Part shown: positions 7,493 through 62,549 of the stretch, in pieces
How the letters are laid out: the number at the start of each line of letters is the position of its first letter
How positions within the stretch are numbered: position 1 is the stretch's first letter
Source of the DNA: an uncultured Flavobacteriaceae bacterium
GTDB taxonomy: Bacteria > Bacteroidota > Bacteroidia > Flavobacteriales > Flavobacteriaceae
DNA: 64,000 nt
Direction of reading: 5' to 3'
NCBI GenBank assembly: GCA_947497245.1
Contig: CANMFO010000002.1
Coordinates: 372,001 to 436,000, forward strand
The notes under the pieces: model-generated
What the model was told of the DNA's origin: nothing
Seen by the model: only the letters and a program-made list of their open reading frames with translations
Databases searched by the model: none
Made by a program: the position numbers and the translations under genes

Positions 7493-9064
7493 TCATTTGA
7501 GCTCTATTTTTTCGGTTTTGTTGTACCCCTTGCCTCGAATGGCCTCAAAACTGGCGATCATCTCCCTTAACTTCTCGGGATGCGTCTCGGCCAAATTGGT
7601 GCTTTGACCAATATCATCTTTCAAGTTGTACAACTGGTAGGTTTCAGAGTTGCCCAGTTCAATATTCACCTGTTTTGCCACCGCAGGACCTTCAAATGGA
7701 GGGATCATGGCCCAATCACCCTTTCTAAAGGCGGTCCTTGTCGTGGCTTCCAAAATAAGTTCCTCCCTTCCTTGGGAGCTCTCGCCCAGGAAAACACCCA
7801 GCAATTCTTCACTGTCCTTTCCCCGTTCCCCACTTCCCACAAGAACTGCCAGGGAAGAAAGCAGATCCACTTGGCTAACCATGGCATCCGATTGGCCCGG
7901 TTGGATCTTGCCTTTCCAATAGGTAAAGAAAGGCACGCGGGTACCCGCTTCGAACAGACTGTATTTGCCCCCTCTCAACGGGCCCCTTGGCGTATGGTCC
8001 CCTATTTTTTCCACGGCTTCGTCATAATAACCATCGTTCAGGACAGGCCCGTTGTCACTCGAAAAAATAATCAGGGTGTTTTCCAGGAGCCCCTCTTTTT
8101 CAAGGGTCTTTACGAACTCGCCAAGTGCCCAGTCCGCCTCAACAATGACATCGCCCCGATCTCCCAGGCCCGATTTGCCCTTGAACCTCGGATGGGGCGT
8201 GCGCGGTACATGGGGCTGCTGCATGGCATAATAAAGGAAGAAGGGTTCATCTTTGTGCTGGGTGACATAGTTTTGTGCACCCTTCAAGAATGTATCGGCC
8301 ATATCCTCATCGATCCACTTTGCTCCTTCGCCCCCTTTCATAAACCCGATACGGGGTATACCGTTCACAATGCTGTTATTGTGCCCATGGTGCCATTTGA
8401 GTTTCAACAGTTCGGGGTTGTCCTTGCCGGTGGGCTCACCCTCAAAGTTCCGATCATAATCAATTTCAATGGGATCGTTCGGGTCCAATCCTACCACATG
8501 GCCATTTTCGATGTATACCGTGGGCACCCGGTCCTGGGTCGCCGCCATGATAAAGGAATGGTCGAACCCAACTTCGTTGGGGCCTGGGCTTACCCTTTCG
8601 TTCCAGTTCACATCTCCATCCCCTAGTCCCAAATGCCATTTTCCAACTATTCCGGTATGGTACCCCTCCTTTTTGAGCATCTTTGGGATGGTCATTTGTT
8701 CTGTTCCGATGAGCAAAGGGGCCGTTCCCGGAAGTATTTTGGCATCCTTTTCCCGCCATGGGTAAACTCCTGTCAAGAGGGCATATCTACTGGGTGTACA
8801 GGTAGCGGAAGAGGCATACCCCTTGGTAAAACGTAGTCCGCCCATGGCCAACTTGTCCATGTTTGGGGTTTTGAGTACCGTGGAGCCATTGAAACCTACA
8901 TCACCAAAACCAAGGTCATCCATATAGATGATCACGATATTCGGTTTCTTTTCAGGTTCTTGGGCGATTTCCTTTTTTTCGTTCTTGCAATTCGTCAGGA
9001 CTCCAAGGCTAAGGGCCAAAATGCCCATAAACTTGGCGTTCCCAAATCCAAATCTTTTTTTCAT
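7493..9064 (-). CDS. Sulfatase, S1 family, lipoprotein (CTPSR)
   Basis: A 523-residue formylglycine-dependent sulfatase that removes sulfate esters from glycans, probably facing the periplasm or cell surface. A lipoprotein signal ends in VLTNC (Cys26). The metal-binding start IVIIYMDDLGFGD is followed by the sulfatase signature with Cys89 in ATCTPSRYALLTG, where Cys89 would be converted to formylglycine by a formylglycine-generating or anaerobic sulfatase-maturating enzyme not seen here. GKWHLG, SSDNGP and a Lys/Arg-rich FEAGTRVPFFTYWKG complete the active site. The overall pattern is arylsulfatase A-like; I cannot fix the S1 subfamily or sugar. It is divergent from the sulfatase at 9530, with a 465-base spacer, and may be cotranscribed with the SanA-like gene. 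Confidence 0.93.
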   Translation of the reverse strand: MKKRFGFGNAKFMGILALSLGVLTNCKNEKKEIAQEPEKKPNIVIIYMDDLGFGDVGFNGSTVLKTPNMDKLAMGGLRFTKGYASSATCTPSRYALLTGVYPWREKDAKILPGTAPLLIGTEQMTIPKMLKKEGYHTGIVGKWHLGLGDGDVNWNERVSPGPNEVGFDHSFIMAATQDRVPTVYIENGHVVGLDPNDPIEIDYDRNFEGEPTGKDNPELLKLKWHHGHNNSIVNGIPRIGFMKGGEGAKWIDEDMADTFLKGAQNYVTQHKDEPFFLYYAMQQPHVPRTPHPRFKGKSGLGDRGDVIVEADWALGEFVKTLEKEGLLENTLIIFSSDNGPVLNDGYYDEAVEKIGDHTPRGPLRGGKYSLFEAGTRVPFFTYWKGKIQPGQSDAMVSQVDLLSSLAVLVGSGERGKDSEELLGVFLGESSQGREELILEATTRTAFRKGDWAMIPPFEGPAVAKQVNIELGNSETYQLYNLKDDIGQSTNLAETHPEKLREMIASFEAIRGKGYNKTEKIELK

Positions 9065-15301: not shown

Positions 15302-15339
15302 TTTGGACAAGAATACGCAAAAACAAAAGGGTAATTTTG
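15302..15339 (+). promoter_or_regulatory. Candidate promoter for the DUF1553 gene
   Basis: TAATTTTG at 15332-15339 is an exact match to the Bacteroidota -7 box TAnnTTTG, 24 bases before the chosen ATG at 15364. TTTG at 15302-15305 could be the -33 element, but the spacing (26 instead of about 19) is long, which fits a promoter needing an activator. The box also argues against the TTG start at 15337, which it overlaps. Confidence 0.4.
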
Positions 15340-15363
15340 GGTTCATTCGAAATCTTAGGTCTT

Positions 15364-18300
15364 ATGATGTTTAAACCCGGCGGAATGATTGCCCTTCTTG
15401 GATTGTTGCTGACAGTGGGGTGTGGGGGACCTGATCTCCCGGATGCGGTAATGGTGGCGTACGGGAAACTTCCGGAAAAAATCGATTTCAACCAAGATGT
15501 AAAGCCCATACTTTCGGACAAGTGTTTTCTGTGCCACGGGCCGGACAAGAATAAAATATCCGCCGGCCTACAATTGCACCTGCCCGAATTGGCATACACC
15601 GAATTGCCCAATTCCCCTGGAAAATATGCCGTGGTGCCCGGAAATGTGAAACGAAGTGAAATGATACGGCGTATTCTGACCGATGATCCCGAGCTGATTA
15701 TGCCGGAACCCGAATCGCACCTTTCACTTTCGGCCCATGAAAAGGCCATGCTGGTCAAATGGATAGATGAAGGAGCCGAATATGAGGACCATTGGGCTTT
15801 CCTTCCACCAAAAAAGAGGGAACCCCCAAAAGTTCGGATGGCCGAAAGGGTGGCGAACCCCGTTGACAATTTCGTGCTGTCCAAACTGGAGGTGGAAAAT
15901 GTGCAATCGAACCCTAGGGCGGACAAGGAAACTCTCTTGAGGAGGGTCAGTTTTGATCTGACCGGACTTCCACCCAGCTTGGACGAGTTGGATGCCTTTT
16001 TACGGGATGATTCCCCTGATGCCTATGAGAAACAGGTGGACCGTTTGTTGGCATCGCCCCACTACGGGGAACAGATGGCATTGGATTGGATGGACCTCGC
16101 CCGTTATGCCGATACCCATGGATATACGGTAGATCGGTACCGGGATGTTTCTGTATGGCGCGATTGGGTCATTAAATCCTTTAACGAAAATATGCCCTAT
16201 GACCAGTTCATTCGCTGGCAAATAGCGGGGGATATGATGCCGAACGCCTCCAAGGAACAGATTTTGGCGACCACCTTTAATCGCTTGCATCCACAGAATT
16301 TGGAAGGGGGCATCGTCGATGAGGAATTCCGTTCGGAATATGTATCGGACCGTACCAACGTTCTGGGCGAGGGGATGATGGGACTTACCATGGCCTGTGC
16401 GAAATGCCACGATCACAAATACGACCCCATTTCGCAGAAGAACTATTATGAAATGTACAGTTTCTTCAACAATGTGAACGAATCGGGGCAGATTCCCTGG
16501 GATTGGTCCATGCCCGTACCCAATATGTTGATGCCCACCGAGGAACAGGAAAAATTCAAGGAATATGTAGAGCGGCTGATCGGTGAAAAGGAAAGAACGG
16601 TGGGGACGATTGCCCAAAAGGAAAATCCGGAAATGGAAAAATGGATTTCCACCGGGCAATATAAAAGTGCCCTCGGGAGCGCTTTGCCAAATGGACTGAT
16701 CGCCAAAATAAATTTTGACAACGGTACGATAAACAATACGATGGCCCCTTATCACAAGGGCGAAATGAAACAGCAGTTCGCGGCCGACCAAAAGGCCAAT
16801 TTTGTGGACGGATATACAGGGAAGGGCCTGGCGTTTGATGGCGATACCTGGCTTGACATGGGCAAACTGGCCATTTTTAGGCGCAGTGACGCCTTCAGTA
16901 TAGGAATACAGGTATTCATTCCCAAGGATCTGCAGGCCGGGGTGATCTTCCATAAGCAAAATTCCACCCAACTACACAGTTACAGGGGATACCATTTATC
17001 GCTAAGGGAAAACAAAATCGAAGTGCTTTTGGCCCATGTTTGGCCCGACAACGCCATAGTGGAGAGGTCTTTGGAGGACATTCCCAAGGACAAATGGGTG
17101 CAATTGACCATGACCTACGACGGTTCCAGCAAGGCTTCAGGGGTTAAAATATTTAGGGATGGAATGGAATTGGAGACCGAAGTAGTTAATGACAATCTCT
17201 ACAAGGACATCATTTTTAACAGTTATGAAGACTATATCCATAAAAACCCAATTGAACCAGGCCTGCAGATCGGTGCCATTTGGAGGGGCAAGGGCATTGG
17301 GGGCGGAAAGGCCGACGATATCCTGGTCTTCAACAGGGAATTGACCCCGCTGGAAGCATTGCAATTGGGAAGCCCGGAACACTTTAAAAACATACGGGAA
17401 AAATCTCCGGACAACCTATCTGCGGATGAGCGATCGGCCTTGATGGCCTATTACCTGTCCAACAAATCAACCCAATACCAAAATTCCCTGACCGAACTGA
17501 AAAAAGCACGCACCGTAGCGGCCGATAGTGCGGAGCAGGTAAGGGAGATCATGGTCATGAAAGAGATGCCGGAACCACGGGAAACCTTTGTTTTGGAACG
17601 GGGGCAGTACGATGTATACGGAGAACAGGTATTTCCAAATACCCCGGAAAAAATATTTGCTTTTCCCGATAGCCTGCCCAAAAACAGATTGGGGTTGGCA
17701 AGTTGGCTTACCGATAGAAAACATCCCCTTACCGCCCGGGTGGCCGTCAATCGTTATTGGCAAAATATCTTTGGAACGGGTATCGTACGTACTGCGGAGG
17801 ATTTTGGGAACCAGGGAGAAATGCCCAGCCATCCGGCTTTGCTGGATTGGTTGGCCATCGAATTTATGGAATCGGGCTGGAACGTGAAAGCGCTGCACAA
17901 ATTAATGGTGATGTCGAATACCTATCAACAGTCTTCCTTGGCCAGTAGCGAATTGATGGCCATCGATGCCAAGAACAGGCTGCTGGCCCGCGGGCCATCA
18001 AAAAGATTGACCGGTGAAATGCTCCGAAACAATGTCCTGACCGCTTCGGGCCTACTCAATACAACCATTGGGGGCCCCAGCGTAAAACCCTATCAACCGG
18101 AGGGCCTTTGGAGGATCAACGGTACCGCTTATGAAGAGGACAAAGGGGAAAAACTGTACAGAAAAAGTATGTATACCATTTGGAAACGCACCGTTCCACA
18201 TCCTACCCTGGCCACTTTTGATGCCCCGGAACGTTCTTTTTGTTCCGTGCGCAGACAGGAGACCAATACCCCCTTGCAGGCACTGGTACTTTTGAACGAC

Positions 18301-18609
18301 CCCACCTATGTCGAGGCATCCCGGGTACTGGGAAAGAGCATGCTTGCCTATTCCGACCCAAAGGAAGGCATTGCGGTGGTGTTCAGGAAATTGACGGGAA
18401 GAAACGCCCGACCTGGAGAATTGCAGCTTCTGGACGAACTCCGATTGGAGGAATATGAAAAGTTTAGGGAAAACGGGAAAAAGGCCGAAGGATGGCTGCA
18501 TTCGGGGGAATTCCGTATTTCCAAAGCCGATGATGGTGCTTTGATTGCGGCCAATGCCGTGGTAGCGAGTACCATTTTGAATTCGGACGCAACAATAACA
18601 AAACGTTAA
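15364..18609 (+). CDS. DUF1549/DUF1553 lipoprotein with cytochrome c-like motifs and LamG insert
   Basis: A 1081-residue lipoprotein (LLTVGC, Cys20). A planctomycete-type cytochrome C domain follows, with CFLCH (Cys54, Cys57, His58) as a haem c site. DUF1549 covers about 163-370 and holds a second CxxCH (Cys345, Cys348, His349 in CAKCHDHKYDP). A LamG/concanavalin-like domain spans about 443-669 (GLAFDGDTWLDMG ... DILVFNRELTPLEA), and DUF1553 about 760-1020 (LASWLTDRKHPLTARVAVNRYWQ). The family is abundant in Planctomycetota, is nearly always followed by a DUF1501 gene as here, and clusters with sulfatases; no reaction has been established. LamG suggests glycan binding and the haem sites suggest electron transfer at the surface (inference). 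ATG 15364 is preferred over TTG 15337. Confidence 0.9.
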   Translation: MMFKPGGMIALLGLLLTVGCGGPDLPDAVMVAYGKLPEKIDFNQDVKPILSDKCFLCHGPDKNKISAGLQLHLPELAYTELPNSPGKYAVVPGNVKRSEMIRRILTDDPELIMPEPESHLSLSAHEKAMLVKWIDEGAEYEDHWAFLPPKKREPPKVRMAERVANPVDNFVLSKLEVENVQSNPRADKETLLRRVSFDLTGLPPSLDELDAFLRDDSPDAYEKQVDRLLASPHYGEQMALDWMDLARYADTHGYTVDRYRDVSVWRDWVIKSFNENMPYDQFIRWQIAGDMMPNASKEQILATTFNRLHPQNLEGGIVDEEFRSEYVSDRTNVLGEGMMGLTMACAKCHDHKYDPISQKNYYEMYSFFNNVNESGQIPWDWSMPVPNMLMPTEEQEKFKEYVERLIGEKERTVGTIAQKENPEMEKWISTGQYKSALGSALPNGLIAKINFDNGTINNTMAPYHKGEMKQQFAADQKANFVDGYTGKGLAFDGDTWLDMGKLAIFRRSDAFSIGIQVFIPKDLQAGVIFHKQNSTQLHSYRGYHLSLRENKIEVLLAHVWPDNAIVERSLEDIPKDKWVQLTMTYDGSSKASGVKIFRDGMELETEVVNDNLYKDIIFNSYEDYIHKNPIEPGLQIGAIWRGKGIGGGKADDILVFNRELTPLEALQLGSPEHFKNIREKSPDNLSADERSALMAYYLSNKSTQYQNSLTELKKARTVAADSAEQVREIMVMKEMPEPRETFVLERGQYDVYGEQVFPNTPEKIFAFPDSLPKNRLGLASWLTDRKHPLTARVAVNRYWQNIFGTGIVRTAEDFGNQGEMPSHPALLDWLAIEFMESGWNVKALHKLMVMSNTYQQSSLASSELMAIDAKNRLLARGPSKRLTGEMLRNNVLTASGLLNTTIGGPSVKPYQPEGLWRINGTAYEEDKGEKLYRKSMYTIWKRTVPHPTLATFDAPERSFCSVRRQETNTPLQALVLLNDPTYVEASRVLGKSMLAYSDPKEGIAVVFRKLTGRNARPGELQLLDELRLEEYEKFRENGKKAEGWLHSGEFRISKADDGALIAANAVVASTILNSDATITKR

Positions 18610-18683
18610 AACAAAATCCCATGTGCCAAAACCACAAGATTTTAAGATCCACGAACCGGGACCTACAGCAAGTCGAGAGACAA

Positions 18684-20141
18684 ATGGACAGGCGGAACTT
18701 TTTGACCAAAAGTTCTTTAGGGCTTGGTGCGATTGCATTGGGTTCCTTATTGAACACCGATTCTGTTTTTGGTTCTGTAAAGGGCCGGGTCAATCCGCAA
18801 AATGCGGAAGCCTTTTTAGCATCGTACAACAAAAATCGATTGGGGCTGCCCCACCACCTTCCCAAGGCGAAACGGATTGTGTACCTGTTCCAAAGTGGGG
18901 GACCCTCCCAATTGGATATGTGGGACTACAAACCAAAATTGAAGAACATGTTCGGTACGGATCTGCCGCCATCGGTTCGCCAGGGACAACGGTTGACGGC
19001 CATGAGTGCGGAACAGACCGTCTTTCCGATTGCCCCCTCCATAATGGATTTTAAGCAATATGGCGAATCGCGGACTTGGGTCAGTGAACTGATGCCGTAT
19101 ACCGCGGAAATCGTGGATGACCTTTGTTTTATAAAATCGATGCAGACCGATGCCATCAACCACGACCCAGCCATTACCTTCCTACAAACTGGGAACCAAT
19201 TGCCGGGTCGTCCGTCCATTGGGGCATGGCTGAGCTATGGACTGGGCTCCGACAATGATAACCTGCCCACTTTTATTACCCTGATCACCAAAAATATGGG
19301 CGGGCAGCCCTTGTATTCCAGACTTTGGGGGAATGGTTTTTTGCCCACGGAGCACCAAGGGGTGCAGTTCCGTTCCGGGAAGGATCCCGTACTCTATCTG
19401 AGCGACCCCGAAAACTACGATGGCAACGACCGACGTCAAATGCTGGATTACCTGGGCAAACTCAATGGCATCCAACACGATGTTTACGGCGACCCCGAGA
19501 TCAACGCTCGGATGACACAGTATGAAATGGCCTTCCGGATGCAGACCTCCGTGCCCGAAGTAACCGATATGTCGGACGAACCCGACTACATTTTTGAAAT
19601 GTACGGAAAGGACAGCAGAGATCCAGGCACCTATGCTGCCAACTGCCTCATGGCCAGAAAATTACTGGAAAAAGACGTGAAGTTTGTGCAATTGTACCAT
19701 CAGGGATGGGATCAGCATATCGGTTGCCCAGGAGGGGTCCGCAACCAGTGCAAGCTTACCGATCAGGCAAACGCGGCCTTGGTCAAAGATTTGAAACAAA
19801 GGGGCATGTTAGAGGATACCCTGGTCATCTGGGGAGGCGAATTTGGACGCACGGTGTATTCCCAGGGACAATTGACCGCCAAGGATTATGGCCGTGACCA
19901 TCACCCGAAGGCCTTTACGATGTGGATGGCCGGTGCCGGGGTGAAACCCGGATTCACCTATGGGGAGACCGATGATTTTAGCTATAATGTGGTCAAAGAC
20001 CCTGTGCACGTACATGATTTTCACGCCACCTTGATGCATTTGTTCGGGATAGACCATGAACGCCTTATCTTTAAGCACCAAGGGCGTCGCTACCGCCTGA
20101 CCGATGTGCACGGACATGTAGTGAAAGATTTACTGAGCTAG
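18684..20141 (+). CDS. DUF1501 family protein, Tat signal
   Basis: A 485-residue protein of DUF1501, a branch of the alkaline phosphatase/sulfatase superfamily lacking the formylglycine signature. The N-terminus (MDRRNFLTKSSLGLGAIALG) is a twin-arginine signal. Likely metal-binding motifs are HQGWDQH, IWGGEFGRT, GRDHHP and HVHDFHAT. An in-frame ATG at 18621 would put 21 residues before the Tat motif, so 18684 is preferred. It follows the DUF1549/1553 gene directly and is its usual partner; the pair is thought to act together on glycans, but no activity is proven. The NHL propeller gene is 52 bases downstream on the same strand. Confidence 0.88.
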   Translation: MDRRNFLTKSSLGLGAIALGSLLNTDSVFGSVKGRVNPQNAEAFLASYNKNRLGLPHHLPKAKRIVYLFQSGGPSQLDMWDYKPKLKNMFGTDLPPSVRQGQRLTAMSAEQTVFPIAPSIMDFKQYGESRTWVSELMPYTAEIVDDLCFIKSMQTDAINHDPAITFLQTGNQLPGRPSIGAWLSYGLGSDNDNLPTFITLITKNMGGQPLYSRLWGNGFLPTEHQGVQFRSGKDPVLYLSDPENYDGNDRRQMLDYLGKLNGIQHDVYGDPEINARMTQYEMAFRMQTSVPEVTDMSDEPDYIFEMYGKDSRDPGTYAANCLMARKLLEKDVKFVQLYHQGWDQHIGCPGGVRNQCKLTDQANAALVKDLKQRGMLEDTLVIWGGEFGRTVYSQGQLTAKDYGRDHHPKAFTMWMAGAGVKPGFTYGETDDFSYNVVKDPVHVHDFHATLMHLFGIDHERLIFKHQGRRYRLTDVHGHVVKDLLS

Positions 20142-20193
20142 GGGCCATGCGATTGAAGGGAGAAGCACCAAGAACAATTTTGAAATAACCACC

Positions 20194-21300
20194 ATGGACA
20201 ACAGAAGAAGCTTTATCAAAAAAACCGCTTTTGCGGGAGCGGCATTGGCCTCAGCCCCCGCTTTTGGTTTTCACATTCTTAAAAAACCATTACAGGAGGA
20301 CGAGATCATCGGCCAGGGTAATTTTAGGTATAAGGTCAAAAGAGATTGGGCCAAGATGACCGTTGGGCACAATCCCATTCTGAATTGCCACGAGATGCAA
20401 ATGGACAGCAAAGGCCGACTGATCATGCTCGGGGACCATACCGACAACAATATTCTGGTTTTTGACAAATCGGGGAAGTTGCTCGATTATTGGGGCACGC
20501 GCTATCCCGGGGGTCATGGTTTGACCTTGCACGATGAAGGGGGCGAGGACGTGCTCTACATAGTCGATTGCGGTTGGTTCCAGGACCGGACCGGTAAATG
20601 GACTAAACAAGCGGGGACGGTGAGCAAAACCACGATAGATGGTCGATTGTTGTTTATGCTTCCCGATCCGCATACCATTGGGGTCTATAAGGCCGATGAG
20701 GACTATCTGCCGACCGAGACCGCCGTGGGCCCCAACGGTGATATCTATGTTGCGGATGGGTATGGGTCGGATTACGTCTTGCAGTTCAGTCCCAAGGGCG
20801 AGTTTATCCGGAAATGGGGAGGCCACAACAATGCGGACCAAAATTACAACCTTCGGAACGCGCATGGGGTCGCGGTGGATTATCGGAACAAGGAAAATCC
20901 GGTTTTGATCATCACCTCCAGGGCCACCAATAGTTTTAAGTTCTTTACACTCGATGGGAAATATATCAAAACGGTTGAACTACCGGGGGCCTTTGTCTGT
21001 AGGCCGGTTCTGGACGATCGGAACATCTATTCCGGAGTTTGTTGGTCCCAGACCCGGGAGGGCAAGGACTATGTTAGGGATACCGGCTTTGTGACCATTT
21101 TGGACGCCGAAAACAAGGTGGTCTCCAATCCGGGCGGGGAAGCGCCAAAATATGAAAAGGGAAAGCTTCAAAAAATGTACCAGGCCAAAAGGCCCGTGTT
21201 CAACCACGGGCACGACGTCTGTGTCGACGAGGACAAAAATGTATATGTCTGCCAATGGAACGCCCATCATACACCACCGGTCAAATTGGAACGCGTGTAG
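20194..21300 (+). CDS. NHL-repeat six-bladed beta-propeller protein, Tat signal
   Basis: A 368-residue exported protein. MDNRRSFIKKTAFAGAALASAPAFG is a twin-arginine signal with an AxA-like cleavage site. The remainder is a six-bladed propeller of NHL type with blades such as GRLIMLGDHTDNNILVFDKSGKLLDYWG, GPNGDIYVADGYGSDYVLQFSPKGEFIRKWG and DKNVYVCQWNAHHTPPVKLE. Similar propellers, some peptidylglycine lyase-like, accompany DUF1501/DUF1553 pairs in Planctomycetota. His residues in HDVCVDE and GHGLTLHDEGG may bind metal. A binding or lyase role in the same surface system is plausible but unproven. Confidence 0.83.
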   Translation: MDNRRSFIKKTAFAGAALASAPAFGFHILKKPLQEDEIIGQGNFRYKVKRDWAKMTVGHNPILNCHEMQMDSKGRLIMLGDHTDNNILVFDKSGKLLDYWGTRYPGGHGLTLHDEGGEDVLYIVDCGWFQDRTGKWTKQAGTVSKTTIDGRLLFMLPDPHTIGVYKADEDYLPTETAVGPNGDIYVADGYGSDYVLQFSPKGEFIRKWGGHNNADQNYNLRNAHGVAVDYRNKENPVLIITSRATNSFKFFTLDGKYIKTVELPGAFVCRPVLDDRNIYSGVCWSQTREGKDYVRDTGFVTILDAENKVVSNPGGEAPKYEKGKLQKMYQAKRPVFNHGHDVCVDEDKNVYVCQWNAHHTPPVKLERV

Positions 21301-55368: not shown

Positions 55369-58300
55369 TTACGGGTTTAGTTTCTTAATTCGTATGTTCC
55401 TGAGCTTTATTTCCGATCCGTGCCCCAAAAAGGCAATATATCCCGTATGTCTGTCCAGGCCCGGGTGGGCCACTTTGTCCAAGGTTCCATTTGCTGAGGC
55501 TTCCCTGAGATTTCCATCTACGATTACCTGACCGTTCAAGGTTATTTTTACAGCATCTCCCTGTACCGAGATTTCCTGGCTGTTCCAAGTTCCCAAGGGG
55601 TTTAAATGTCCTCTTTTCGGTGCGAGGACCCCATAAACGGCCCCATTGTATTGATAGGCTTTCAGCTTGGCATAAATGGCGGCGGTATCATCTAAAATCT
55701 GGACTTCTTTTGCCACATATGCTGGATCTCCCTCTGGAGGCATATGAAATCCCAATCCATTGTTCGCTCCTGGGGTAAGTAGGTATTCGAAGCGAAGGAC
55801 AAAATCCGAATACACTTCATTTGTGGTTAAATTGGAGTAATTTCCCTCCTTTGCAGGGAGTACGGTCAATTCATTGTTTTCGATGTGGTAATCGTTTTCG
55901 TTTCCGGTCCAATTTTCAAGGTTTTTACCATTAAAGAGGGGAACGAACCCAGCAGCCACTTCCTCGTCGTCCAGAACTACCTTGTTTGGCGTAATTTCAC
56001 GGACATAGACATTCCTGAAACCGAGATTTTCGCCATGGGCCTGCAACTCAATCGCCTCTTTGGTAAATATGGGTTGTGTCCGGTCCCAATAATTTTCCAA
56101 AGAAACCTTATCGGTCACAAGAACACCGTTCAAATGAACCGTCACCTTTTCCCCGACCATTTTTATTCGGAAGGTGTTCCATTCGTCCACCGGATTGTCC
56201 GCTACGGTCAGGGGCTTGCTCATGTTGATCTGGTTGTTGTATAGGCCCCCACTTCCTATCTGGGCGCCTTCTTGCCCTGGGTCTGTGTCCCAAATTTGGA
56301 CCTGTGGGGTGCCCCTTAGGTAAATTCCACTGTCCCCTCCTTTGGTGATTTTCCAATCTACCAATAGTTCAAAATCGCCATAATCCTTAATGGTGCAGAT
56401 ATTGTTATAGCCCTCCCCTTTAAACATTATTACGCCATCTTTTACGAACCAATCTTTTTGCATTTGGGCATTCGCCTTTTGTTGCGCCCGTCGTAGCGCG
56501 TTTTTCGACATTTTTTCCCTTGTGATCGGATCTTTGACCAGGCCTTCCCAACCGCTCAGATCCTTGCCATTAAAAATGGGTACAAATCCTTTCTCTTTTG
56601 GCATATTGTCCAAAAACTCCTGCACATCAATTTTTGCATACTGGCTTTCCGGGCCTTCCAAGTTTCCAACACTTTTGGTTATGGCTTCGCGAACGACCTC
56701 ACCGCTTAGGCCATCATTGCCAATGGGGGTGGGCAGGGCTATTCGTATAATGGCATTGGAAGCGGTGGCCACGGTCGTGCCCTTACCCTCCAGATAATCG
56801 GAGACAAAGACCAAGGACAAAAAGGTTTTGATGGTTGCGGCGGCATTGATGATTTGATCGGTCTGATCGTCGGTTGCACTGAGCGGCACCATTTTTTGTA
56901 TCAACAATAATTTTTGATCGTCAGGATGGTCGGAGCGTACCACCTTGGTCAGATAATTTTTAAATGCCTTTGATCGGATACGCTCCCCTTGCGAGCCATT
57001 TACTGCTTGAAACAAATAGGGCAGCGCGGCATTGTCTTTCCAATTGGCCAGAACATCCAAAGCGACCATTCCGTCTTCTTCATGGCCCGAACCCAAAAGC
57101 TTATGGATACGTTCCAAACCTTGTTGATTGCCCAATAATGCCAATAAAGGGGCAATTTTTTGTTTTTGGTCCGCACGGTCATAGCTATCATATATCATCG
57201 TGGCGGTTGTTCCGGATGCACTGGCCAGTAACGGCGCTATGGCCTTTTGGACAGCGGTAACGTTTTGGTCGCTTTGGGCGCTGCCAAGTAGTTCCAGGAG
57301 GTTTGAAAGCTTATCCGCTGATGCCAATTGTGGCAAGGCTGCATAGATCGTGCGGTTTAGATCGGGGTTTTTGGAGTCGATTAGGGCAACAACGGCATCG
57401 TATTGTGCCGTGGCCCTTCGTGCCGCTAAAACATTTATAAGCGTTTGCTTCCCTTTTGCGTTCATTTCATTGAGGGAAGTGGTGAGCTTACTAAGGTCGT
57501 CGGCACCGCATACCCTTAGCAAGGTTTCTTCAACGGCCCGGTACGTCCTGCTGTCCTGGGCTCCCTTCAGTGTCGTGAGCAAAACAGGGAGTGCCGTGGA
57601 TTTTTCCTGAAATGCCAAAGTTTTGATACCCGCGATTTTAACGTCCAAATCGGCATCTGCAAGGGCCGGAATAATGCATTTTTCATAAACGGACGGCCAG
57701 CTTCCCCTCTGCAACATGCGAAGAAGGTGAGGTTTTATCCCTTTTGGAGCTTTTTTGTAGAATTTCACCCATCTAGGCGCATTGTTCGCATTTAGGTTTT
57801 GCGCTGCGATATCCACTACGGCGGCACTGTATTCCGGATTCGCGTTTTGCGCTTCCTTTATCAAAGTTTTTGTGAAACGGTCTTGTTTCAAGGAATTTAG
57901 CAACGCTATTCCTGCTATTCTAAAATGCAATTGCTCTTGGGAGACACAATTTTTAATAATGGCGTGCCCTACTTGGGCGGCCAGGTCGGTATTCCCGTTT
58001 TTGGCCAAGCTTTTTCCATAATCGATATAAGCCAAGATGGCCTTGGAACCGTCCAGTGAATAATTGGCCTCCTTTGCGGAATTGCCCAAGATGGTATGGG
58101 AACTCACATCACCGATATTGGCAAGGGCCATCAGCGACTTTTGCTTTAGGGATTTGGAGGATTTCGCCACCAGATCGTGAAGAAATGCGGTAGCTGATTT
58201 GGCGGCCAGTGTCCCTAAGGCTTCCACCAATGCGGGCAGTATATTGTCGTTGGCCCCCTTTGCGGCATCAAGAATCGCTTTTTCCGAATTTGGGGTACCA

Positions 58301-58779
58301 ATGGTGACCAAAACATCCAATGCGCTGGCATATACGGCTTCATCGGTTAAAAGCCCCCCCAGCAAAGGAATACTCTCCTCTGTTCCGCAAAACTGCAGGC
58401 GGGCTATCAAAAAGCGCTTTGTTTCGTTGTCCGAAGCGTTTTGAATTGCCTTTAGCAAGGAGGTCTCTACCAGATTGTTTTTTTCCGCATTTCCAGTCCC
58501 GCCACTGTATACTGCCAGACTTTGTAAGGCGTAGCGGGCGTTTCGATCATCCCCTGAGCCCAAGGGGACCAACATGTCACAAAATTGCAGAATGCCCTCG
58601 CCGCCCAGACCGATCATGTCTTCCATTAGGTTGTTGGCATGATCAAGGTCGTTGGTTGGAAATTTTGCTAGGATATCCGCAACTTTGGTTTCTAGGGTCC
58701 TGTTGATCTGGCCGGTCAGTACCGGGGATGCCAACAGGAATATAACAAATACCAATATTTTGTTTCGAAATGTCATCAT
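55369..58779 (-). CDS. HEAT-repeat protein with two DUF1080 (3-keto-glycoside lyase/hydratase-like) domains
   Basis: A 1136-residue exported protein with a signal peptide (LVFVIFLLASPVLTGQ). Residues about 30-700 are HEAT-like helical repeats (SIPLLGGLLTDEAVYASALDVLVTIG and many similar). The first DUF1080 domain begins near 726 (FVPIFNGKDLSGWEG) and the second near 941 (FVPLFNGKNLENWTG), both with the concanavalin-like beta fold. DUF1080 enzymes have been shown to cleave or hydrate 3-keto-glycosides made by Gfo/Idh/MocA dehydrogenases, and such a dehydrogenase is encoded 11 bases upstream. Two domains in one chain may provide successive steps (lyase plus hydratase), which is inference. The stop lies near 55369. 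Confidence 0.85.
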   Translation of the reverse strand: MMTFRNKILVFVIFLLASPVLTGQINRTLETKVADILAKFPTNDLDHANNLMEDMIGLGGEGILQFCDMLVPLGSGDDRNARYALQSLAVYSGGTGNAEKNNLVETSLLKAIQNASDNETKRFLIARLQFCGTEESIPLLGGLLTDEAVYASALDVLVTIGTPNSEKAILDAAKGANDNILPALVEALGTLAAKSATAFLHDLVAKSSKSLKQKSLMALANIGDVSSHTILGNSAKEANYSLDGSKAILAYIDYGKSLAKNGNTDLAAQVGHAIIKNCVSQEQLHFRIAGIALLNSLKQDRFTKTLIKEAQNANPEYSAAVVDIAAQNLNANNAPRWVKFYKKAPKGIKPHLLRMLQRGSWPSVYEKCIIPALADADLDVKIAGIKTLAFQEKSTALPVLLTTLKGAQDSRTYRAVEETLLRVCGADDLSKLTTSLNEMNAKGKQTLINVLAARRATAQYDAVVALIDSKNPDLNRTIYAALPQLASADKLSNLLELLGSAQSDQNVTAVQKAIAPLLASASGTTATMIYDSYDRADQKQKIAPLLALLGNQQGLERIHKLLGSGHEEDGMVALDVLANWKDNAALPYLFQAVNGSQGERIRSKAFKNYLTKVVRSDHPDDQKLLLIQKMVPLSATDDQTDQIINAAATIKTFLSLVFVSDYLEGKGTTVATASNAIIRIALPTPIGNDGLSGEVVREAITKSVGNLEGPESQYAKIDVQEFLDNMPKEKGFVPIFNGKDLSGWEGLVKDPITREKMSKNALRRAQQKANAQMQKDWFVKDGVIMFKGEGYNNICTIKDYGDFELLVDWKITKGGDSGIYLRGTPQVQIWDTDPGQEGAQIGSGGLYNNQINMSKPLTVADNPVDEWNTFRIKMVGEKVTVHLNGVLVTDKVSLENYWDRTQPIFTKEAIELQAHGENLGFRNVYVREITPNKVVLDDEEVAAGFVPLFNGKNLENWTGNENDYHIENNELTVLPAKEGNYSNLTTNEVYSDFVLRFEYLLTPGANNGLGFHMPPEGDPAYVAKEVQILDDTAAIYAKLKAYQYNGAVYGVLAPKRGHLNPLGTWNSQEISVQGDAVKITLNGQVIVDGNLREASANGTLDKVAHPGLDRHTGYIAFLGHGSEIKLRNIRIKKLNP

Positions 58780-58790
58780 CTTAATTGTGT

Positions 58791-60059
58791 TTAGGAAGAC
58801 CAAGTGCCCCTCATGGGCTGTTCGATCAATCTGTTTGCTTCTTCATCGTTTATGAATTCTTGCCCAAGAGGGTCAAAATCTAGGTTGCGCCCTAGACGGA
58901 GGGCCACTATTCCCATATTGACAATGGTTGCCGAGCGATGTCCGTTCTCCTCGTTCAAGGCAAATTTTTGACGTGTTTTCACGGACTGTGAAAAAGTTCC
59001 AATTTGTTCCTCGGGATCGGGAATGCTATCGATAAGATCCTCAATATGGGGAATGGTCGATTTAAAGTCCTTAAAGATCTTCCCGTCCGGGCCTTCAATA
59101 TATGCGGCATCCTTATTTTTATTTTCACCATCCAGGATTATTTGACATCCATCGGCATACGTAAACACGATTTTCCTCCAGGTGCCGATGGCATCGTAAT
59201 GCTGCTGGGGCGCATCTATTTCAACTTTTATGGGACTGGTATGGTCCTTACCCAAAAAGTACTGGACCGGGTCGATATAATGTTGTCCCATATCCCCGAG
59301 TCCCCCGCCATCATAATCCCAATACCCCCTAAAGGTTTGGTGCACTCTGTGCGGGTGATAGGGTTTTTCCGGGGCCGGTCCCAGCCACATGTTGTAGTCC
59401 AGGTTTTCGGGAACCGCTTGTGGGGCCAAATTTTCCTTTCCGACCCAATAGAATTTCCAGTTAAATCCGGTGATGCCGCTAATGGTGACCTTTAAGGGCC
59501 ATCCCAGGGCCCCACTGTCGACCACCTTTTTAATTTTTTTGACGGGTATGCCCATGCCATAGAAATTATCCTTGAAACGGAACCATGTGTTCAAACGGAA
59601 CATTTTTCCATGCGTTTTCATGGCTTCCACAACCCGCTTACCTTCGCCTATGGTTCGGGTCATGGGCTTCTCACACCAGACATCCTTTCCGGCCTGGGCC
59701 GCCATAATGGACATAAGGCCGTGCCAATGGGGAGGAGTGGCGATATGGACAATATCGATGTCAGGGCGAAGCAGGACTTCCCTAAAATCCCGATAGGCCT
59801 TTACACCCTTGTCCACTTTCTGAAGTGTGGAAGCAAGGTGTTTTGTGTCGGCATCGCAAATGGCCAAAAGCTTGGTGTTTTCATAATTTAAATGATTCTG
59901 TCCCATGGCCCCGACCCCTATTACAGCCTTGGTAAGCTGGTCACTGGGAGCGATAAAATTGCCCCCGCCCATTACATGTCTAGGAATAATGACGATACCT
60001 CCCGCTGCTAGTGCGGACTTCTTAATGAAGTTTCTTCGGTTTGTTGATCGATGTTTCAT
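58791..60059 (-). CDS. Tat-exported Gfo/Idh/MocA family oxidoreductase
   Basis: A 422-residue oxidoreductase with a twin-arginine signal (NRRNFIKKSALAAGGIVIIP). The cofactor region reads KAVIGVGAMGQNHLNYENTKLLAICDAD. The family Lys lies in VWCEKPMTRTIGEG, and the preceding VHIATPPHWHGLMSIMAAQAGKD and the GGGLGDMGQHYIDPVQYFLG segment are characteristic. It is most likely the 3-dehydrogenase of a keto-glycoside pathway with the adjacent DUF1080 protein. Start 60059 (MKHRSTNRRNF) is preferred over 60092. It differs from the first Gfo/Idh/MocA gene (12939) in most loops and should act on a different glycoside. Confidence 0.9.
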   Translation of the reverse strand: MKHRSTNRRNFIKKSALAAGGIVIIPRHVMGGGNFIAPSDQLTKAVIGVGAMGQNHLNYENTKLLAICDADTKHLASTLQKVDKGVKAYRDFREVLLRPDIDIVHIATPPHWHGLMSIMAAQAGKDVWCEKPMTRTIGEGKRVVEAMKTHGKMFRLNTWFRFKDNFYGMGIPVKKIKKVVDSGALGWPLKVTISGITGFNWKFYWVGKENLAPQAVPENLDYNMWLGPAPEKPYHPHRVHQTFRGYWDYDGGGLGDMGQHYIDPVQYFLGKDHTSPIKVEIDAPQQHYDAIGTWRKIVFTYADGCQIILDGENKNKDAAYIEGPDGKIFKDFKSTIPHIEDLIDSIPDPEEQIGTFSQSVKTRQKFALNEENGHRSATIVNMGIVALRLGRNLDFDPLGQEFINDEEANRLIEQPMRGTWSS

Positions 60060-60197
60060 CTGGATGCTCTTTGCGGTTAATTTGAAGGACAAAGAAATAG
60101 GTTATTGTGTAAGAAGAGGGGTAATAAATGGGGTAACACCATCTTTTTTTTTGATTTTGTTGCCAGTTGAAAGAAATGACGGGGAATTGGGAACCCC

Positions 60198-62549
60198 CTA
60201 ACGATGTGGTGGATACTCCGAGACGATATCCTCGAAGGAAATGGTATAGGGCGCCATGTACAGTTTTTGGTACAGTTTGGCAAAATTGCCATGTACGGCA
60301 TGGGCCAAACGCAATTTTCCCTGTTGCACCAGCACCTGAAGCTTTAGGCGCAGCGCGGCCTCGTTGAGATCATCGTATAGGTAGATTACCTCGGCAAGTT
60401 GAAAGAGCAGATCCCCATGGACACGGGGGTCCAGCATTTTTGAATACCGTATGCATTGTCCGATGACCAAGTTGCTGAATTTCTCAATGAACGGATCCAA
60501 CCAGGAATTACCGCTGTTTGCCAGGAACCGCCCCGCTTGTAAAACGGCCAATAGCGTTGGCAATTCCTTTTCCAATAGCTGGGGAGAAGCCAGCTGGCTT
60601 GCGAAACGGTCGATATAGGTAAGACAGGTCCTGTAGTCAAAATAACAACCCTTCCCCATTTCGATACGCCAACACTTGTTGACAAAGTTCAGGTTGATAT
60701 TGGGGCAGGAGGCAAGAAGCGACCTGAGGTTTTGGATATTGGTGCCTCTGGTGTTTTTAGCACTTTGGCTCGTCATTCCCGGCCATAACAGTTCGGTAAG
60801 ATGTTTTGTAGAAATGCCCTTCCCATTTTCCAGACTGTGCAGGAGAATGACAAGGAATATTTCTTTTAGCTTGGGCGATAGCTTTTTGGCAAGGTCGGTC
60901 CCTTCCTGATCGTAAATTTTGAGCCCTCCAAAACAAAGTATTTGCTCTTTGTGGACTTTGTGGTTCAACTCCGGGACGTCTTTTGGGGACGCGGACAGAG
61001 CATTTTCGCGATCGGGATGGGTTTCGGCCCCAATTTTTCGTGGTCCGGACTTCCACCAAATAAAAAACGATAACAGGAACAACAGCCCAATTGCGCCCGC
61101 AACAAAGAATCGATCGATGGTCAATGCCCTGGATGGGTTGGATTGCTGTTGGTACTGTGACAATATTTCACTGGCATTGAGTTCCCGCTCCCAGATTTTT
61201 ATTTCCCCCAGATACCCCACAAAGAATTCCTCCCACAGATTGCTTCCGATCAAAATATTGTAATTCGATGGTTCGTAGTCTGATATCAGTGGTATCCGAT
61301 CCGTTTCCTTTCCATTTATATAAAACAATAGGATGTTGTCTATTTTTGAGTAGACCAGGGCAATATGCGACCATTGGTTCAGGGGAACCGGAGAGGGTCG
61401 GGAAATATAGTCTTTGATCCCCGCCATGGTAAAGGTTAAAAACCCATCGTGTATTTTTAGAACAAAACCGTCCCCTTTTCCCAAAATACTGTTGTTTAGG
61501 TCCAATACCGTGGGCTTGGCCCAGGCCGTGATGGTAAAGTTGGACTGAAGGGCCTCCTTGCTTTTTAGACCTGCATCGATATAGGCCCTGTTCTCAAAAA
61601 AGCCCACACGGCCCAATAGACTATCCGGTTTAATGTCCACATTATTGGTCAGTATTTCCGCTGAGTTTTTCCGAACGGTATTTTGAATGGTTTTTTCAAA
61701 GGTAAAATGCTCCGTCAACCCAAAATTGATGTCGAGGTGAAATGCGGTAAAATCTTTAAGGTTGTCCTGGTTTTCCGGAGAGGTATAAATGATGTCCGGG
61801 GAAAATCGGTACCCGGCCTTATATGGAATTAGGATGGGAAGGGTTTCTTCATCGGTCAAAATGGGAAAAGAGAAAAAACCGGATATGGTGCTGTTCCTAA
61901 AGTTTTTGAGCGTTACGTCCGAAAGCATGCCACTTTCGGTACGCACCATTCCAAATACCTTTGGCATGGCATTGATGGCCGTTGTCAAACTATCGATTTT
62001 AAAAAGGGTACTTTCGGAAGCTTCGATGAAATTGGGCAGTTTTCCGGTACGGTTCCAAAGTGCCATGCATTGCCTTGCGAATGACATATTGTTTTTTGAA
62101 TTACGGACCAGGAGCATTTTCCCACCTTCCCCGATTCCGGATAGGCCGGGTTTCAACGAATCTTTCAAAACAATGGTACGTACCTGGGTATACGGAATTT
62201 CCACAGTTGGAATGCGCTCCAAAATGTACGAGGGCACCTTGCGATCCGTAAACACCACCAGCGAATCGTTGTATCTCCCATAAATTTTTAGAAAGTAAAG
62301 ATTGCTCGTCTTTTTTTCGGAAAGCGATACGGCGATAGGGGTCTGTTTTTCAATAAGGGGCAAGAGCTTGTCCAGGGAAACGCTGTCCAAATCAATAAAA
62401 ACATGGGATTGCCTGTCGATAGGAGGTCCAAGGTCGTGCAGGGCGGTTTCCTGGTTTTGGGCATTCCCGCAATGAACCATACCGATCAATAAAATCAAGC
62501 AAGAACAATAGCCAAGTAATTTTACCAAAACACGTGCCTTAAGAAACAA
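60198..62549 (-). CDS. Membrane-spanning LamG sensor with cytoplasmic SARP/BTAD-like DNA-binding region
   Basis: A 783-residue protein. A hydrophobic N-terminus (VLVKLLGYCSCLILLIGMV) would put the first half outside. An uncharacterised beta region (about 40-300) precedes a LamG/concanavalin-like domain (about 330-453; TITAWAKPTVLDLNNSILGKG ... GYLGEIKIWERELNASEIL). A transmembrane helix follows (about 478-500; FFVAGAIGLLFLLSFFIWW). The cytoplasmic part starts with a winged-helix segment (about 536-620; LCFGGLKIYD ... LSPKLKEIFLVILLHSLENGKGISTKHLTELLWPGMTSQSAKN) and ends in a BTAD-like helical array (about 636-775). This resembles SARP regulators, which are normally soluble. The start is uncertain: the TTG at 62549 overlaps a -7-like TAAATTTG, and an in-frame stop precedes it. 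Confidence 0.78.
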   Translation of the reverse strand: MFLKARVLVKLLGYCSCLILLIGMVHCGNAQNQETALHDLGPPIDRQSHVFIDLDSVSLDKLLPLIEKQTPIAVSLSEKKTSNLYFLKIYGRYNDSLVVFTDRKVPSYILERIPTVEIPYTQVRTIVLKDSLKPGLSGIGEGGKMLLVRNSKNNMSFARQCMALWNRTGKLPNFIEASESTLFKIDSLTTAINAMPKVFGMVRTESGMLSDVTLKNFRNSTISGFFSFPILTDEETLPILIPYKAGYRFSPDIIYTSPENQDNLKDFTAFHLDINFGLTEHFTFEKTIQNTVRKNSAEILTNNVDIKPDSLLGRVGFFENRAYIDAGLKSKEALQSNFTITAWAKPTVLDLNNSILGKGDGFVLKIHDGFLTFTMAGIKDYISRPSPVPLNQWSHIALVYSKIDNILLFYINGKETDRIPLISDYEPSNYNILIGSNLWEEFFVGYLGEIKIWERELNASEILSQYQQQSNPSRALTIDRFFVAGAIGLLFLLSFFIWWKSGPRKIGAETHPDRENALSASPKDVPELNHKVHKEQILCFGGLKIYDQEGTDLAKKLSPKLKEIFLVILLHSLENGKGISTKHLTELLWPGMTSQSAKNTRGTNIQNLRSLLASCPNINLNFVNKCWRIEMGKGCYFDYRTCLTYIDRFASQLASPQLLEKELPTLLAVLQAGRFLANSGNSWLDPFIEKFSNLVIGQCIRYSKMLDPRVHGDLLFQLAEVIYLYDDLNEAALRLKLQVLVQQGKLRLAHAVHGNFAKLYQKLYMAPYTISFEDIVSEYPPHR

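Follow-up and report, generated by a model that had tools for sequence, protein, structure and literature searches.

A predicted membrane-anchored SARP-like regulator with an outer LamG domain adjoins a conserved tandem repeat and a Gfo/Idh/MocA–DUF1080 gene pair in Bacteroidota

Organization of the locus

The window, that is, the whole 64,000-nucleotide stretch of DNA analyzed here, carries on its minus strand (60198–62549) an open reading frame that runs without a stop for 783 amino acids from its first possible start, a TTG at 62549. We interpret its product as a membrane-anchored SARP-like one-component regulator. The frame is the sole match in its own 5.25-Mb genome, where no second regulator of the LamG/Kelch-SARP-like family was found. 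The protein begins with a hydrophobic stretch closing in GNAQ, its homologues having similar N termini, and on the basis of this stretch and a modeled helix at residues 2–27, with no signal-peptide program, we assign residues of about 1–31 (62457–62549) to a signal peptide. There follow an α/β ectodomain of no assigned fold at residues of about 43–200 (61950–62423; AF2 model mf63f5b270bf7), a LamG or ConA-like lectin domain at residues 335–462 (61164–61547; PF13385), a single transmembrane helix at residues 481–499 (61053–61109), an OmpR/SARP-type winged helix at residues 535–631 (60657–60947; AF2 model me93e0794656e), and a BTAD-like helical array at residues 638–776 (60222–60638; helices at 104–242 of the C-terminal model), all on the minus strand. 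The initial annotation had proposed this order from LamG domain to BTAD-like array, and it is borne out by Pfam for the LamG domain, by hydropathy, flanking charges, and the homologues for the transmembrane helix, and by AF2 and Foldseek for the C terminus.

Of the 54 untruncated homologous loci, 32 have TTG as the earliest start codon available to the regulator gene and 22 have ATG, and this codon is often followed immediately by a good signal peptide. A TTG start could mean a low level of expression.

Behind the regulator gene on the same strand lie a Gfo/Idh/MocA oxidoreductase gene (58791–60059; PF01408 and PF19051) with a Tat-type start and a gene for a HEAT-repeat protein (55369–58803; HEAT_2, PF13646) with 3-keto-disaccharide hydrolase (DUF1080) domains (PF06439, E 1.4e-78). 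Pfam thus confirms the Gfo/Idh/MocA–DUF1080 pair that had been named downstream of the regulator; the two are its predicted targets. The Gfo gene probably starts with the ATG at 60059 rather than with the TTG at 60092, because the latter falls in the predicted −7 box described below and the relatives are also about 422 residues long. Twin-arginine-type (RR) starts are present in 45 of 49 members of the Gfo cluster. PF06439 proteins, BT2157 among them, are known or proposed 3-keto-glycoside hydrolases according to the accessible part of the source (PMC9007349). These starts and this hydrolase family make it probable that the controlled pathway runs in the periplasm, the compartment in which the LamG part would encounter substrates or products.

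Topology and outer domains

For comparison, we used a homologue set of 55 loci from a scan of genome contigs and omitted the truncated L108 from the protein counts. The window protein has one strong transmembrane segment, at residues 481–499, with a charge bias that favors an N-out/C-in orientation. In 54 of 55 proteins (the 54 homologues plus the window protein), the 15 residues flanking the helix on the inner side are more positive than those on the outer side, with totals of 312 Lys/Arg and 47 Asp/Glu inside and 108 Lys/Arg and 165 Asp/Glu outside. The initial annotation would have been refuted by homologues with a periplasmic C terminus; this bias instead favors a cytoplasmic one. Homologues of the same order had also been called for, and all 54 untruncated relatives carry a hydrophobic helix before the winged helix and LamG or Kelch outside. 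Across these proteins and that of the window, the helix ends 24–50 residues ahead of the winged-helix match; the linker in the window protein is 36 residues long.

When the full-length regulator was compared with Pfam at E ≤ 1, Laminin_G_3 was the only match (residues 335–462, 77.4 bits against a curated cut-off of 27.6, E 1.7e-21), and no kinase, receiver, AraC, sigma, or anti-sigma domain was found. This agrees with the earlier view that the protein is not a Bacteroidota regulator of the hybrid two-component or ECF type. At E ≤ 0.01, 50 of the 55 proteins match LamG and five match Kelch (PF24681). Judged by these sequence matches, the regulator belongs to a family with a variable outer part, either LamG or Kelch.

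The AF2 model of the ectodomain, built from 26 LamG-type rows, has a mean pLDDT of 86.2 and runs from the α/β domain (about 43–200) through strands up to residue 300 to the LamG jelly roll. Its best fold match in the PDB is domain 4 of the GH43 arabinanase AbnA (5hon, E 1e-12), which a profile search also finds (E 3.1e-5). The fold list came without query ranges, and the lengths of its rows mostly fit the LamG part. We rejected a toxin-related meaning for this list, as the clostridial binding domains in it reflect a generic lectin-like jelly roll. The end of the α/β domain and the strands that follow (about 165–300) are well conserved among the 26 relatives.

A SARP-like fold in the C-terminal domain

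The initial annotation was to be abandoned if structure prediction failed to place a winged helix after the transmembrane segment. The AF2 model of residues 535–783 does place one there, with a pLDDT of 94.5, and continues into a BTAD-like helical array: two strands, three main helices, and two further strands precede the array. Its input was an alignment (A6) of 31 C termini, obtained from a 39-row alignment (A3) by removing the eight most distant rows. In a Foldseek search, the six best PDB folds are all SARPs, from AfsR (8hvr, 8k60) and EmbR (2fez, 2ff4), with E values of 5.9e-6 to 3.2e-4 and query TM scores of 0.58–0.65; the seventh match has an E value of 0.05. The AfsR and EmbR alignments span about 250–265 columns against 249 query residues.

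Structure and profiles were needed for this domain because Pfam is blind to the BTAD region of the window protein, which its BTAD model does not recognize. The 39-row profile, which includes the distant rows, matches AfsR with an E value of 1.1e-10 over profile positions 22–221. AfsR ranks third among the PDB matches of this profile, after two designed TPR proteins whose match is to the helical part; ToxR (E 0.015) and CadC (E 0.86) are weak matches. The 31-row profile alone finds PhoB-type winged helices at 3e-4 and AfsR merely at 0.13. Pfam BTAD is reached at E ≤ 0.01 by four of the 55 full-length relatives, and PF03704 at E ≤ 0.1 by 13 of the 39 single C termini, which come from the window's own phylum. 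That SARPs are normally actinobacterial, as the initial annotation put it, therefore holds only with the qualification that BTAD-like domains also occur in Bacteroidota. The literature returned by one SARP-related query was actinobacterial work, as far as titles and the opening lines of abstracts tell. On the strength of the model and its fold matches, we conclude that the C-terminal part has a predicted SARP fold, in which a BTAD helical domain comes after an OmpR-type DNA-binding domain.

Distribution of the family and linkage to the gene pair

A three-sequence profile was used to find relatives in genomes of the same family and in a draw across the phylum. Relatives of the regulator are present in 23 of 299 family genomes and in 19 of 296 phylum-draw genomes, of which six are strong (E < 1e-30, including the window's own genome) and 13 weak; some of the 13 weak sequences match Pfam BTAD. 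Matches to the LamG part alone were rejected as homologues: 24 of 99 genomes match, with coverage of the C terminus only in L002, L003, and the window's own genome. The 55 loci of the homologue set include 17 from Arenibacter, together with Polaribacter, Lutibacter, Sunxiuqinia, Draconibacterium, Sinomicrobium, Zhouia, Cellulophaga, Salegentibacter, Roseivirga, and others.

In 40 of the 55 loci, spanning 19 genus-level labels and including all 17 from Arenibacter, the regulator, the Gfo/Idh/MocA gene, and the DUF1080 gene follow one another on one strand. Among the remaining 15, the DUF1080 gene comes first in three, one gene intervenes in two, seven are arranged otherwise, and three are of a Roseivirga type, in which a planctomycete-type cytochrome/DUF1553 gene follows the regulator. 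The HEAT part of the DUF1080 protein is found in 10 of 299 family genomes, nine of which also hold the regulator, as against 23 of 299 overall (Fisher 1.7e-10); by coordinates, the regulator stands just upstream of the HEAT-DUF1080 gene in those nine. The Fisher tests given here and below count related genomes as independent, and Arenibacter accounts for 17 of the 55 loci.

Several further observations concern the surroundings of these genes. One genome (G176, locus L144, G176:C6:20000-36000) holds a Gfo–DUF1080 pair 94% and 67% identical to the Arenibacter proteins without regulator or operator. It sits behind a SusC/SusD-like pair, recognized by weak similarity and by reading with no Pfam test, and apparently represents the same enzymes under rewired control. 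In a second regulator subfamily, the gene begins 34 bp past a 5S rRNA (G029; L145:9973-10115), and the corresponding distances are 119 bp in Zhouia (L126, 174–401) and 152 bp in Sinomicrobium (L138, 181–441). The contigs of L128, L134, L137, L139, and L141 start within about 310 bp upstream of the regulator; these starts could be the same rRNA break, which has not been shown. Within the window, three genes at 15337–21300 cluster (clusters 19–21) with genes behind the Kelch-type regulator in Roseivirga, where the partner protein carries PSCyt1, PSCyt2, and PSD1 domains by Pfam. Six open reading frames of a single cluster (cluster 14) lie at 7493–42824. We take them to be probable sulfatases from a motif in a related open reading frame, which suggests a sulfated-polysaccharide island in the same window.

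A tandem repeat in front of the target genes

The gap between the regulator and Gfo genes contains the predicted operator (60106–60136, minus strand), a tandem repeat consisting of TTACCCC (60136–60130), a 5-nt spacer, TTACCCC (60124–60118), another 5-nt spacer, and TTACACA (60112–60106). The direct repeat TTACCCC-N5-TTACCCC is present with at most two mismatches in all 40 regulator–Gfo gaps (39 loci and the window), with 32 exact copies, seven with one mismatch, and one with two, whereas shuffled sequences reach this level in 4 of 2000 cases. At the same tolerance, a period of 12 fits all 40 gaps, 24 fits 29, and 13 and 14 fit five each, while periods of 10, 11, and 22 fit none of the 40. The period of 24 corresponds to the first and third copies, the third being weaker.

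Over both strands of 56 loci (1,060,924 bases), there are 46 sites with at most one mismatch, a single one in each of 46 loci: 43 before Gfo, two before the DUF1080 gene (L089, L125), and one before an unidentified gene (L115). In L089, L129, L131, and L132, the target lies 0.9–3.9 kb from the regulator and the site accompanies the target. We rejected the idea that the motif is a feature of the regulator's 3′ end or a terminator, since in these four loci it lies away from the regulator and before the target. Autoregulation through the same site was likewise set aside, as each of the 46 loci has a single site with at most one mismatch, never before the regulator. Of the ten loci that lack a site with at most one mismatch, L110 and L122 have GTACCCC twice at the 12-bp period, and the three Roseivirga loci with Kelch-type regulators have TTAACCC-N5-TTAACCC, also at 12 bp. 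In five of the 56 loci (L111, L116, L118, L123, L133), a search of the 400 bases past the regulator gave no related tandem. In L135, L142, and L143, the change of half-site from TTACCCC to TTAACCC accompanies a Thr-to-Val change in the putative recognition helix (KNNRGV.. against KN.R.T..), and the two changes are probably one evolutionary event. L123 and L133 also carry the Val in this helix, with no site found there.

The exact two-copy pattern occurs once in the window's own genome, at 60118–60136 of the window, and a reversed control pattern also occurs once. With the third repeat included and up to three mismatches allowed, there are five further genomic sites, all with three mismatches, against 18 for the reversed control. 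Among the 299 family genomes, the exact pattern is found in 18: 10 of the 23 with the regulator and 8 of the 276 without it (Fisher 2.6e-8), so that it is missing from 13 of the regulator-positive genomes. Ten of the 11 exact sites in regulator-positive genomes stand directly behind the regulator. Of the nine stray exact sites (eight in regulator-less genomes and one extra in G141), six lie inside open reading frames. In the phylum draw, a longer pattern is found in 4 of 292 genomes, the window's own included; the others (G591, G463, G449) are not regulator positive. The regulator-less G176 operon has no operator site, its best match having three mismatches. The reversed control matches clearly more family genomes than the real pattern and matches once in the window's own genome, so a chance background exists, and the operator argument rests on position and on the contrast with regulator-positive genomes, not on rarity. 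The initial annotation had proposed the Gfo–DUF1080 pair as the target; gene order in 40 of 55 loci, co-occurrence, and an operator-like tandem repeat before the pair all lend this support.

Promoter geometry

Eight nucleotides past the third repeat, we predict the −7 box of the Gfo promoter, TTTCTTTG (60090–60097, minus strand), from its conserved spacing and the Flavobacteriaceae consensus TAnnTTTG, which is the −7 consensus given for Flavobacterium psychrophilum in the portion of the report available to us (PMC9723704). With sites weighted by 26 genus-level labels, conservation is seen in the −7-like box and in the partial third repeat, with its T at +25 and its A at +26. In 42 of 47 sites, the best TAnnTTTG match between +30 and +60 starts at one of two distances from the first repeat, 39 nt in 29 sites and 40 nt in 13, which puts the box 8 or 9 nt past the third repeat. 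When the downstream flanks were shuffled 500 times, the same spacing was reached on average by 3.6 of the 47 and by no more than 10. The fit to TAnnTTTG is complete in three of the 47 boxes; the other 44 depart from it, 28 being TTnnTTTG-like, as would be expected of an activator-dependent promoter.

Discussion

The architecture, fold, topology bias, gene linkage, conserved site, and promoter spacing described above are computed results. The reading that we consider likely is that they belong to a SARP-like one-component activator, tethered to the membrane, whose one principal target is a periplasmic 3-keto-glycoside operon. With no data on binding, expression, or ligand, three points are inferences: recognition of the site by the protein, activation upon binding, and the carbohydrate nature of the ligand. 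The regulator would be a single-pass inner-membrane protein, with the α/β and LamG domains in the periplasm and the winged helix and BTAD-like array in the cytoplasm. Its outer part may sense a substrate or product of the periplasmic oxidize-then-cleave pathway and thereby switch on the inner part, in a signal chain that would involve no kinase, receiver, or anti-sigma domain. The cytoplasmic part is predicted to bind TTACCCC-N5-TTACCCC-N5-TTAC over the −33 region of the promoter that immediately follows the regulator gene. Once bound, it would recruit RNA polymerase, leading to transcription of the genes for the Tat-exported Gfo/Idh/MocA protein and the secreted HEAT/3-keto-disaccharide hydrolase.

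The tandem repeat might instead be bound by a different, unlinked regulator, the membrane protein being a neighbor with another role. The absence of binding data and the exact site in 8 of 276 regulator-less genomes leave room for this. We regard it as improbable, given that the regulator-less G176 operon lacks the site, that six of the nine stray sites fall inside open reading frames, and that the half-site changes along with the regulator subfamily in Roseivirga. We think it quite unlikely, too, that the protein is a repressor that sits over the −33 region and blocks the promoter until a ligand releases it. The site does cover the would-be −33 element, which alone does not tell activation from repression, but SARPs with direct repeats so placed are activators in the sections of the literature at hand (PMC10936776, PMC10972967), and the departure of the −7 box from consensus in 44 of 47 sites, 28 of them TTnnTTTG-like, resembles an activator-dependent promoter.

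How the signal would cross the membrane, and what it is, leave more room for alternatives. Proteolytic control of membrane regulators is known, and the 36-residue linker between the transmembrane helix and the winged helix could hold a cleavage site, so that the SARP-like part might be active only once cut from the membrane by regulated proteolysis, and not while tethered. Little speaks against this; the target adjoins the regulator gene in 40 of 55 loci, an arrangement that suits a tethered protein, and we hold proteolytic release to be rather unlikely without excluding it. A little less doubtful is the possibility that the LamG domain, as a protein–protein or structural module, tracks the exported enzymes or an outer-membrane transporter and not a sugar. 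LamG-type jelly rolls bind many kinds of ligand, and some family members carry Kelch repeats in its place. Against it stand the best match in both fold and sequence, which is to a LamG-type domain from an arabinanase, and the family assignment of the linked genes to glycoside enzymes. We retain a tethered activator with a carbohydrate-sensing outer domain as the preferred reading.

If this reading is true, SARPs would extend from soluble antibiotic regulators to membrane-tethered nutrient switches, and the Gfo/Idh/MocA–DUF1080 pathway for 3-keto-glycosides would gain a dedicated sensor. The predicted 31-bp operator and its promoter are precise and directly testable. The joint occurrence of regulator, operator, and target in many Bacteroidota would also allow regulons to be predicted from sequence alone. 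We lean, with less assurance than for the single protein, toward an undescribed class of one-component regulators that have SARP domains on the inner face and exchangeable periplasmic sensors (LamG, Kelch), each using a 12-bp tandem operator to control in essence a single adjacent promoter, and that together would give Bacteroidota a kinase-free route to sense and use glycosides by the 3-keto (oxidize-then-cleave) pathway. The conserved TTACCCC direct repeat before Gfo and its spacing from the −7 box are new here. We found no earlier description of a membrane-anchored SARP or a Bacteroidota LamG-SARP protein; subscription journals were not covered and the other sources were available only in part, and this absence is weakly supported.

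The proposed regulator can be set beside three known kinds of system. Hybrid two-component systems and ECF/anti-sigma pairs of Bacteroidota couple carbohydrate sensing by a membrane protein to glycan genes, according to the excerpted source (PMC10766802). The same coupling is proposed for the regulator, which differs in that Pfam detects no kinase, receiver, AraC, sigma, or anti-sigma domain in it. With ToxR and CadC, it shares an OmpR-type winged helix, one transmembrane helix, and a periplasmic sensor in a single chain. In those proteins, the winged helix is N-terminal and cytoplasmic and the sensor C-terminal and periplasmic; here the order is inverted: the sensor comes first and lies outside, and the DNA-binding part comes last and lies inside, with a BTAD-like array in addition. 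The regulator is thus neither a ToxR/CadC member, given this inverted order, nor a hybrid two-component system.

The closest likeness is to the SARP activators AfsR and EmbR and those of the DnrI/ActII-ORF4 type, whose winged-helix and BTAD fold the model reproduces. As far as the available text goes, SARP promoters have direct repeats with an 11- or 22-bp spacing and the 3′ copy 8 bp from the −10 element (PMC10936776), and SARP sites are heptamers with 4–15-nt spacers, some in three copies, that overlap the −35 region (PMC10972967). The predicted operator resembles them in its heptamer direct repeats over the −35/−33 region, its last repeat 8–9 nt from the −10/−7 box, and its 5-nt spacer, which is within the published range (PMC10972967). 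It differs in its period of 12 bp in place of 11 or 22 (PMC10936776), and the regulator differs in not reaching the Pfam BTAD score, in being anchored in the membrane behind an N-terminal sensor, in its occurrence in Bacteroidota, and in its linkage to a glycoside operon. Because the 11-bp period and the Pfam BTAD score are missed despite the fold and the promoter placement, we file the regulator not as a canonical SARP but as a membrane-bound variant that works like one.
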